DNA of 32,978 nucleotides, from contig WQWU01000030.1 of NCBI GenBank assembly GCA_009785215.1, positions 1 through 32,978 of the forward strand. The letters run 5' to 3'. The stretch is from Treponema sp. (lineage in GTDB: Bacteria; Spirochaetota; Spirochaetia; Treponematales; Breznakiellaceae). This document shows, piece by piece, positions 1 to 1,504 of the stretch; the stretch's first letter is position 1; each line of letters starts with the position of its first letter. The notes below the pieces were generated by a model. It made no database searches and was not told the origin of the DNA. It saw only the letters and a program-made list of their open reading frames with translations. A program made the position numbers and the translations under genes.

Positions 1-312
1 GCTCTTTATAATGGAAGCTCGGCGGGGATATACAGAGCAAGAACAACGCCTGTAGACATGTTTTCTGCAAATGCATGGGGATTACATGACATGCATGGAA
101 ATGTGAGGGAGTGGTGTTGGGATTGGTATGGAACATATCCTACAACAGAGCAGCTAAATTACAAGGGTGTTTCCTTTGGTTCTCTTCGTGTATTGCGCGG
201 TGGGAGTTTTGGCGGCGTCGGTCGTTTCCTCCGTTCTGCCGGTCGGGATTACCTCAATCCCATCGGCAGGAACGCCGATGTCGGTTTCCGCGTTGTTCGC
301 TCTTATCCCTGA
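1..312 (+). CDS. FGE-sulfatase (SUMF1) domain protein, C-terminal part
   Basis: This is the 3' end of a gene that enters from the left; frame 1 is open from base 1 to the TGA at 310-312 (103 codons). The protein shows the family's C-terminal signature: NAWGL-DMHGNVREW, then CWDWYG, RVLRGGSF, an R-S-A-G-R element and the closing GFRVVR. The fold is that of formylglycine-generating enzyme, a C-type-lectin-like fold that bacteria also use for surface ligand-binding proteins. The ATG at 58 lies inside the domain, so it is not a credible start. The last ~115 bases are poor in A and carry NNC/NNT codons at the family's variable positions, which suggests a DGR target protein (separate entry). Enzyme activity cannot be judged because the part expected to hold the catalytic cysteines is not in the window. 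The domain call is firm; the role is open. Confidence 0.85.
   Translation, partial: ALYNGSSAGIYRARTTPVDMFSANAWGLHDMHGNVREWCWDWYGTYPTTEQLNYKGVSFGSLRVLRGGSFGGVGRFLRSAGRDYLNPIGRNADVGFRVVRSYP
187..300 (+). other. candidate DGR variable region (VR)
   Basis: In this 114-base stretch only 11 bases are A, although the genome around it is AT-rich. The family's fixed residues (RVLRGGS, R-S-A, the spaced R and P, GFRVVR) are kept. The residues between them (F-G-G-V-G-R-F, G, D-Y-L-N, I-G, N-A-D-V) are all encoded by codons ending in C or T. That is the pattern expected when AAC/AAT codons of a template repeat are randomised at adenines by a DGR reverse transcriptase, as known for Treponema denticola TvpA. 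No template repeat or reverse transcriptase is seen in this window. Confidence 0.5.
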
Positions 313-540
313 CGTATGAAAAACACTATATATTTTAGTAAGCAGGTATGATCACGCAAGTGTAACAGGTACCAATTTCCCGTAGGATGCATGACACCTA
401 ACGCTACTATATGCAGCGTACCGCCGCAGATTTCGAGCAATACCTGCTCAGCTTGTATTGAAACTAAAAAACAGAAAGCGTTTTTTATGTGCTTTTGTGT
501 GAGTTCTTGGCTTGTGTGAGGTCTTGGCTCAAAAGCGAAA
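313..540. other. intergenic region between the FGE-domain gene and the Rpn gene
   Basis: No credible ORF is seen in these 228 bases. A short inverted repeat pairs 401-405 (ACGCT) with 415-419 (AGCGT). An AT-only stem pairs 466-472 (AAAAAAC) with 480-486 (GTTTTTT) around a 7-base loop; it is a weak terminator candidate for either flanking gene. From 488 on lies an interspersed repeat (separate entry). If the upstream gene is a DGR target, the DNA just after its stop is where a homing (IMH-type) element would be expected, but no strong GC hairpin sits directly behind the stop. Confidence 0.5.
488..530. repeat. interspersed repeat, left copy, with 17-bp tandem duplication
   Basis: Bases 488-514 are identical over 27 bp to 1667-1693, on the other side of the Rpn gene and in the same orientation. 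Within this copy a 17-bp unit (497-513) is repeated at once at 514-530 with two differences. A related inverted copy lies at 17123-17160. Confidence 0.85.
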
Positions 541-1452
541 TTACAGCTTTGCTATTTCTTCTAGGGAGAGGCCAGTGATATCGCGGACAAATTCCGGTGT
601 CATACCTTTTGCCAAAGCATTTCTGGCAATATTGATGCTAGTTTTAGTGATTCCTTCTTTACGGCCTTTTATTAGGCCTATTTCCACTGCGGTATGGTAA
701 TCGGAATATTTATCCATCTCATACATTTTGCGGCTGCGTATTCGAGCACGCTCATGTTCGTCTTGACTTATTTCTCTTAATAATGTCGCAGCCATGCCTA
801 TCTCCTCTTTTTCTTTTATTATATCATTAATTAGCTTTCTGTATACAGGATCATCAGCATATTTAAAGAATAATGACCATTTTTCAAATGTAGTAAGAGC
901 TTCTACAGGTTTTTTTTCTACAGTATATAATTTACTTAATTCTACAATAATAATATTGACTTGATCTGTTAGTTGTTCTCCATCCTCTGTACGCAGTGAA
1001 AACCTATGCACAAAATCCTTGCGATTAGAAAAAACAGTGTGTAATGAAAATGTGATTTGGTATGTCCTCTTTAGGTCTTTATATCTTACTCCTTTTGATT
1101 TCTGAGAAGAATGAAGGTCTGTCAGATAATAAGTATATTTATTTAAGAAATTGATTCGTATTGTTCCAGTTTCCACTCGTTCTTCGCAGTGCATTTCAAC
1201 ATTAACTTGGTCTCCGTTTTCGATTGTACAGTTAACATCAAAACGCTCAATTTTTTCTTCTATATCCATTGCTGGTAGTTCATTATTTCGGATTTGCACA
1301 TCCAAAACTTTTTGTTCGATAACTGCCGAAATGATATCGATTAGGACTTGTTTGGCATTTGGATGCGTAAGCAAAGCTTTAAAAATGCGATCGTCTGATG
1401 GCGGTAACAGGTCTGCATCTTCTGTTATAAAATTGTTCTTTAGGTTGGCCAT
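541..1452 (-). CDS. Rpn family nuclease / putative transposase
   Basis: The 303-aa protein matches the Rpn (recombination-promoting nuclease, PD-(D/E)XK) family. It has an N-terminal D-R-I-F-K-A-L-L element, a predicted nuclease core around D72 and E86 (FDVNC...VNVEMH), and a C-terminal tail of the type GLIKGRKEGI...ARNALAKGM...ITGLSLEEI common in this family. The start at 1452 (MANLKN) is chosen because AAGGAG lies 8-10 bases upstream; an ATG at 1497 would place the reading frame through a hairpin in the leader. The family's usual E-x-Q is E-M-H here, so activity is uncertain. Family members promote RecA-independent recombination and are often mobile or multicopy. The gene lies between 27-bp direct repeats and is transcribed against its neighbours. 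Confidence 0.88.
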   Translation of the reverse strand: MANLKNNFITEDADLLPPSDDRIFKALLTHPNAKQVLIDIISAVIEQKVLDVQIRNNELPAMDIEEKIERFDVNCTIENGDQVNVEMHCEERVETGTIRINFLNKYTYYLTDLHSSQKSKGVRYKDLKRTYQITFSLHTVFSNRKDFVHRFSLRTEDGEQLTDQVNIIIVELSKLYTVEKKPVEALTTFEKWSLFFKYADDPVYRKLINDIIKEKEEIGMAATLLREISQDEHERARIRSRKMYEMDKYSDYHTAVEIGLIKGRKEGITKTSINIARNALAKGMTPEFVRDITGLSLEEIAKL

Positions 1453-1481
1453 ATATATCTCCTTGAGCAGGGCTCCCCCCG

Positions 1482-1504
1482 ACAGTGTATTTTGCATACA
1501 CTGT
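1482..1504. promoter_or_regulatory. 9-bp perfect inverted repeat in the Rpn gene leader
   Basis: ACAGTGTAT at 1482-1490 pairs perfectly with ATACACTGT at 1496-1504 around a TTTGC loop. If the -10 at 1513-1518 is used, the Rpn mRNA would begin almost exactly with this stem. It could be an operator or a 5' mRNA hairpin. No T-run follows on the minus strand, so it is not a terminator for that strand. Confidence 0.6.

Follow-up and report, generated by a model that had tools for sequence, protein, structure and literature searches.

A probable past target of a diversity-generating retroelement at the edge of a Treponema contig

What wrote the last codons of the gene with which this Treponema contig opens, and are they still being rewritten? 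The DNA analyzed here (the window, 32,978 nucleotides) is an entire contig, G000:C30, of a 1.9-Mb assembly that comprises 54 contigs and is 74.7% complete. Since the contig start falls inside this gene, which encodes an FGE-sulfatase/TvpA-like protein, the gene is 5′-cut (Table 1). The initial annotation had read positions 187 to 300 as a candidate variable region (VR) of a diversity-generating retroelement (DGR), a system in which an error-prone reverse transcriptase (RT) copies a non-coding template repeat (TR) rich in AAC/AAT codons, misreads the TR adenines during copying, and yields a cDNA that replaces the C-terminal codons of a TvpA-like (FGE-type) protein gene. Our analysis leads us to regard it as probable that this segment is indeed a VR that was written by a DGR in the past and that the window copy is an orphaned, inactive target, the sequence of which would have been frozen in this genome.

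Composition and codon signature of the segment

The base composition on which the proposal had been built was confirmed. With 11 adenines in 114 bases, the segment is among the A-poorest 114-mers of the window (n = 32,865; mean, 33.9; minimum, 11), and each of the 34 114-mers with no more than 11 adenines lies inside positions 164 to 311. Its GC content is 61%, compared to 44% in positions 1 to 186 of the same gene and 38% in the whole window. Likewise, the described habit of NNC/NNT (NNY) codons between the fixed positions of the family is followed by 23 codons out of 25 in the stretch from RGGS to GFR; the exceptions are a CGG and an AGG, in columns that are Arg in 140/140 and 101/140 non-template cores of the family, respectively. 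Against a baseline of 50.9% NNY (7,481 codons in 19 ORFs of the window), this corresponds to a nominal P of 1.4e-5, a value that assumes an independence that codons do not quite have. However, the habit is family-wide, as 115 of 140 non-template cores have NNY at at least 9 of the 10 columns in which templates encode Asn, and NNY at these columns is therefore weakly specific for a DGR target.

The assignment to the TvpA type was borne out as well: the best solved-structure match by sequence is 2y3c (TvpA), both for the part of the protein encoded in the window and for a full-length copy on contig C23 of the same genome (E=3.3e-32), in each case ahead of SUMF1.

Table 1. Positions of the target gene, its variable region, and neighboring features in the window, together with the template-RNA tail loci of the genus
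Feature	Position	Strand	Evidence or remark
3′ part of FGE-sulfatase/TvpA-like target gene, 103 codons + stop	1..312	+	PF03781 E=4.4e-22; 2y3c (TvpA) E=1.6e-13
DGR-type variable region core, 32 codons, RGGS...GFR	196..291	+	alignment with 7 genus TRs
Template-Asn columns of the window core	codons 6, 7, 11, 18, 19, 20, 24, 26, 27, 28	+	10/10 NNC/NNT, one still AAC
Stop codon and site of IMH-like signal (mostly GTTCTG in template-paired genus targets)	310..324	+	window reads TGACGTATGAAAAAC, signal absent
Interspersed repeat	381..420	+	same-genome copies C2:153-193 (85% identity) and C2:1046-1086 (83% identity)
Possible template-RNA terminator scar GAAAGCGTTTTTTAT, suggestive only	474..488	+	15-mer match
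PD-(D/E)XK nuclease/transposase-family gene, downstream of target gene	541-1497	-	PF12784, E=2e-31
Template-RNA tail	L081:6747-6946	-	
Template-RNA tail	L082:7752-7884	-	
Template-RNA tail	L083:3397-3572		
Template-RNA tail	L087:3479-3634	-	
Template-RNA tail	L180:1712-1867		
Template-RNA tail	L181:7030-7186		

Templates and targets in the same genus

RVT_1 was present in 18 of 59 genomes searched. A scan for repeats whose differences fall only at the A of one copy detected, in five genomes of the same genus (G004, G005, G009, G014, and G024), a template on the RT-bearing stretch with the C-terminus of an FGE-type gene as its target. Over the best 80-nt core, these five TR/VR pairs have 16 to 18 differences, 100% of them at template adenines, and two more pairs that have no RT alongside (G012:C41 with 15 and G026:C88 with 14 differences) also differ at A throughout, so that the cores of all seven pairs differ by 14 to 18 positions, at TR adenines only. 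The few non-A differences outside these cores are found mostly at the repeat ends, with one within the G024 repeat. The templates have an RGGSWNN..NRNNNIGFR-like reading, and a domain scan of the G024 cassette alone revealed an HRDC-domain ORF in addition to the RVT_1 RT. A-biased repeats with other targets were found in G006, G012, G021, and G028; G012 and G021 (L085 and L090) also show a second DGR type, whose template reads FWSSSQNN and whose target ends differently. Furthermore, VR codon 16 can be an in-frame stop, which is TAA in the G009 template (L081, G009:C88) and TGA or TAA in targets (L081; L286, G009:C166; L298, G009:C131; and L259).

The segment of the window is homologous to these DGR targets and aligns codon for codon with their VRs, and where the window has its scattered NNC/NNT codons, the TRs hold AAC/AAT. 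At the ten columns that are AAC/AAT in at least 6 of the 7 templates, the window reads GGC GGC TTC GAT TAC CTC GGC AAC GCC GAT, i.e., NNY without exception. In comparison to the seven TRs, the mismatch rate of the window is 65-72% at A sites and 25-39% at all others (P 3e-5 to 0.017 in one-sided Fisher tests). The reading of the segment as a DGR footprint is sustained by the genus VR alignment, the TR Asn codons at its NNY columns, and the match to TvpA. Of the 169 cores collected, 149 besides the window have its length, and the one that mismatches it least at non-A sites is the G012 TR (25%), with an ordinary target next (27%). No template is known for the exact window copy, either from its own genome as searched or among the seven genus TRs; even the nearest TR differs from the window at 17 of 68 non-A sites. 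Codon 5 of the window core (TTT) is not accounted for by A-mutagenesis of the TGG present in all seven templates.

A family search of the own genome revealed four places. C23 holds the full-length copy (300 aa counted from the ATG, with a lipobox-like LLTC) and, in tandem on its 3′ side, a truncated one; the other two are the window and a 5′-cut copy on C6 that adjoins a recombinase-like ORF (named by eye). The whole VR core is present in three of these four copies; the truncated C23 copy has the VR tail only, out of frame with the remainder of the gene. This tail, compared with the G012 template, provides the strongest in-genome evidence. Over 32 nt (C23:29062-29093), it mismatches the G012 TR at 0/22 non-A and 6/10 A sites, and nowhere else in the 166,766 own-genome positions scanned are there fewer than two non-A mismatches; to the other six TRs, the tail has 3 to 8 non-A mismatches. 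The window itself has 0/10 non-A and 6/10 A mismatches over the first 20 nt of the same stretch, and 3/22 non-A mismatches over all 32 nt. The other own-genome copies likewise look diversified and fit less well in that C6 has NNY at 8/10 columns and the full-length C23 copy carries one extra codon.

In the 180 bases before RGGS, the window and the full-length C23 copy are 83% identical, with 9, 6, and 16 mismatches at codon positions 1, 2, and 3, whereas the first 22 VR codons are 64% identical, with 9, 10, and 5 mismatches (Fisher P=0.027 for the upstream versus VR split). In the VR, the mismatches thus move to codon positions 1 and 2, which matches the prediction of adenine mutagenesis of AAY codons. 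Within-genome paralogue pairs that are 70% or more identical upstream (n = 35, pairs that are not independent, 31 of them being from two genomes) have VR mismatches of 374/296/183 versus 269/206/498 upstream, a codon-position pattern that is what DGR activity predicts. A clear third-position deficit was present in only 2 of 10 paralogue pairs of Po218_bin21, one of these two genomes, and none was seen in the single G019 pair. Moreover, an orthologue group of six loci (L194, L195, L199, L202, L207, and L208; 15 pairs) has VR mismatches of 13/0/127, i.e., 127 of 140 at third positions, with nearly one VR sequence across species and the NNC/NNT signature retained. By its sequence conservation, this group could be an old VR that is now kept like any gene, possibly a domesticated variable region. 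Since the signature persists in a synonymously evolving group, it shows origin, but it is no proof of activity and gives no date for the event.

Machinery, 3′ signal, and break-up of cassettes

The initial annotation had noted neither an RT nor a template in the window, and we agree, as there was no RVT_1 match and the A-biased repeat scan returned no template. It had further suggested that the gene would be rewritten in trans or by elements past the left end of the contig. In the 74.7% complete assembly, however, no RT was identified by family search (PF00078/RVT_1) or with the genus profile built from five RTs, and a template-peptide search returned no template, its matches being three target copies and a C13 match that was taken as chance (E=0.08). 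DNA matches on C2 were rejected as a template as well, since they represent the interspersed repeat near an IS200-like transposase; an IS200-like (Y1_Tnp) gene lies just downstream of one of the two C2 copies (L191). A covariance model of the template-RNA tail (see below) had no match in the own genome either, with 75 of 407 first-look candidates scored. The assembled 75% thus contain neither the near-copy nor the RT that the DGR reading led one to look for, which, taken literally, speaks against that reading; with 25% of the genome missing, the absence of RT, template, and tail is weak negative evidence.

The local evidence from the 3′ signal is stronger than this genome-wide absence. TTCTG follows the stop codon in 6 of the 7 template-paired genus targets, with TTTGAC in the G014 target; at the same place, the templates carry CCCTG, CTCTG, or TCCTG, and CCTGAC in G014. 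The 3′ ends of target and template in the genus pairs read GTTCTG versus GCCCTG, GCTCTG, or ATCCTG. Directly 3′ of the window VR, this IMH-like signal is absent, with TGACGTATG instead of TGAGTTCTG, and for this reason the window gene was not classed as a working target; the C23 copy retains TGAGTTC. Among 142 genome-locus VR cores with a nearby stop (excluding 4 viral cores and 24 that have no stop close by), GTTCTG is kept in 29, kept in part in 30, and neither in 83. Nine viral-contig relatives entered the analysis as sequences only. With RT and template not found and the 3′ homing signal absent, the sequence is probably frozen, and the genome as assembled gave no evidence for the suggested service in trans or from the left.

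Across the genus, the FGE family was found in 38 of 39 genomes (402 matches) and the RT profile matched in 13 of 39, five of which scored high (376-685 bits). The profile also matches five of another six genomes, to which public loci had led. G019 (L120, L138, and L162) has 53 FGE-domain matches, the most of the 39 genomes, and the RT profile finds only a 109-aa fragment there. Six templates are followed 3′ by a conserved three-stem RNA tail (Table 1), in which a stem over CTGCGG, next to where the template ends, is accompanied by a middle stem and a terminator, with two-sided change in at least one sequence at 8 of 29 consensus pairs and no Rfam family at gathering score in the four of the six tail loci that were searched. 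The covariance model built from these six templates matched in 13 of 39 genus genomes, G000 not being among them.

Cassettes in different states of completeness were found. Both RT-less TR/VR pairs have no RT between or after the repeats: on G012:C41, which begins 546 bases before the target gene, the template is followed by a 675-aa ORF (translation-factor-like by eye), and G026:C88 ends 273 bases past the tail. On G016:C83, where the template is gone, an internally deleted RT precedes a template-RNA tail; L248 has a shortened HRDC-like ORF and then a terminator arm (by eye); and on G026:C27 (L254), the target is followed by the terminator arm only. Furthermore, four template-less targets have the template's RNA tail right behind their VR (L286, G009:C166; L287, G024:C87; L288, G004:C33; and L279, G021:C11), and the tails of those on G009:C166 and G024:C87 are closely similar to the template tail of their own genome. 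Such orphans might have arisen by crossing-over between VR and TR, with the RT deleted and the template tail left behind. This idea was weakened because tail-bearing targets mostly carry the VR-type TTCTG (G009:C166, G024:C87, G004:C33, and G021:C44; a variant in G061:C100) and only G021:C11 has the template-type GCTCT; the combination of template tail and VR-type TTCTG on the same targets points to an exchange of tail and target by a route other than simple VR x TR crossing-over.

In the window, the 15-mer at 474-488 was found elsewhere only at the TR terminators of G009, G005, and G026 (1.57 Mb fetched, in partly overlapping loci), a match that was picked after being seen. A terminator profile run over the window with nhmmer was not significant (1.2 bits, E=4.1), and it was also weak in parallel cases (L030/L254, E 0.04; L248, E 0.09). 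As far as a string match goes, the 15-mer may be the last trace of a template-RNA terminator. The window would fit as the end of a decay series in the genus, from cassettes to RT-less pairs, remnants, and bare targets. A more far-reaching reading, though not the more likely one, is that DGR cassettes of the genus break up again and again, giving rise to a large reservoir of hypervariable orphans that would also include the targets on G009:C166 and G024:C87, which have both an intact GTTCTG and the template's tail. Some of these genes, as a speculation, may still be rewritten in trans. If so, a large family of receptors would depend on a small number of RTs. We consider this genus-wide break-up more interesting than the single orphan target.

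Origin, present activity, and known systems

For the origin of the segment, the genus evidence and the C23 tail outweigh the missing RT and template, but they do not do so for present activity. The same DGR mechanism would thus have written the window copy, which is presumably inactive now. That the quarter of the genome missing from the assembly holds an RT and a template which still rewrite the gene in trans is unlikely. Points in its favor are the fragmented assembly with a contig start inside the target gene, the diversified look of the other own-genome copies, and the two RT-less TR/VR pairs of G012 and G026, near which, admittedly, contigs end. What speaks against a remote but active DGR is the absence of GTTCTG behind the window stop, a motif fully kept in 29 of 142 cores, together with RT, TR, and TR-RNA tail not having been found in the assembled part.

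Two further explanations concern the origin itself. Normal divergence of an ordinary FGE paralogue, with Asn/Gly/Asp-rich loops that happen to use NNC/NNT codons and with no DGR involved, would agree with the finding of the family in 38 of 39 genus genomes, compared to 13 of 39 for the RT profile, and with an orthologue group of the family that changes synonymously in this segment. We nevertheless hold it to be quite improbable, since A-only TR/VR pairs occur at the same codons in the same genus, an A-only match to a genus template exists within the same genome (C23), and the A and GC composition of the segment departs from the rest of the gene. Alternatively, an already diverse C-terminus might have come in from a paralogue by gene conversion or recombination; exchange between copies does occur in the genus, as the second targets in G009 and G024 closely share the 3′ tail of the template. 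Here, however, no donor was seen among the other own-genome copies, and the VR would be DGR-written all the same, which makes this explanation hardly credible. A VR written by a DGR in the past and orphaned since then therefore remains our preferred reading, and it implies that composition alone (A-poor, with runs of NNC/NNT) can flag DGR targets where the machinery is unseen.

Among known systems, the formylglycine-generating enzyme SUMF1 shares the Pfam FGE-sulfatase domain and is the weaker match compared to TvpA. The Cys pair of its C-terminal segment is catalytic, and the window protein has no Cys after residue 39, i.e., none in the aligned C-terminal segment; a function as formylglycine-generating enzyme is thus unlikely. 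The nearest public relatives of the window are presumably of termite origin, and a literature search for diversity-generating retroelement and termite returned no spirochaete paper by title. A large DGR survey points out that its design misses remote targets (PMC8144416). Should orphan targets still be rewritten in trans, the number of diversified proteins would be higher than RT counts suggest. With the DGR of Bordetella phage BPP-1, as also cited in PMC4891356, the genus shares the mutagenesis of adenines between TR and VR, together with a difference between the 3′ ends of VR and TR, in contrast to which the target here is a chromosomal FGE-type protein, with no RT found in its own genome.

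The closest parallel is the TvpA/DGR system of T. denticola, in which the target belongs, by sequence, to the same protein family and has its VR at the C-terminus. Like the genus studied here, it has an HRDC-domain ORF together with the RT (as in the G024 cassette) and an IMH-like 3′ signal, and the IMH/IMH* difference reported for T. denticola (PMC4891356) resembles the 3′ difference between genus targets and templates. Some targets are lipoprotein-like in both, 18 of 47 full-length genus ORFs matching a crude lipobox pattern. The protein of the window gene may be surface displayed. Targets in genomes in which RT and TR are absent or were not found are likewise common to both: T. denticola strains without RT and TR keep targets, which that study reads as leftovers of a lost DGR (PMC4891356), so that orphan DGR targets are of a kind already described there. 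By contrast, the window copy has no 3′ signal, and unlike T. denticola, the genome belongs to another Treponema lineage with a larger target family (up to 53 FGE matches per genome). Thus, the hypervariable-protein system of oral Treponema also occurs in another lineage of Treponema, with a much larger family of targets.
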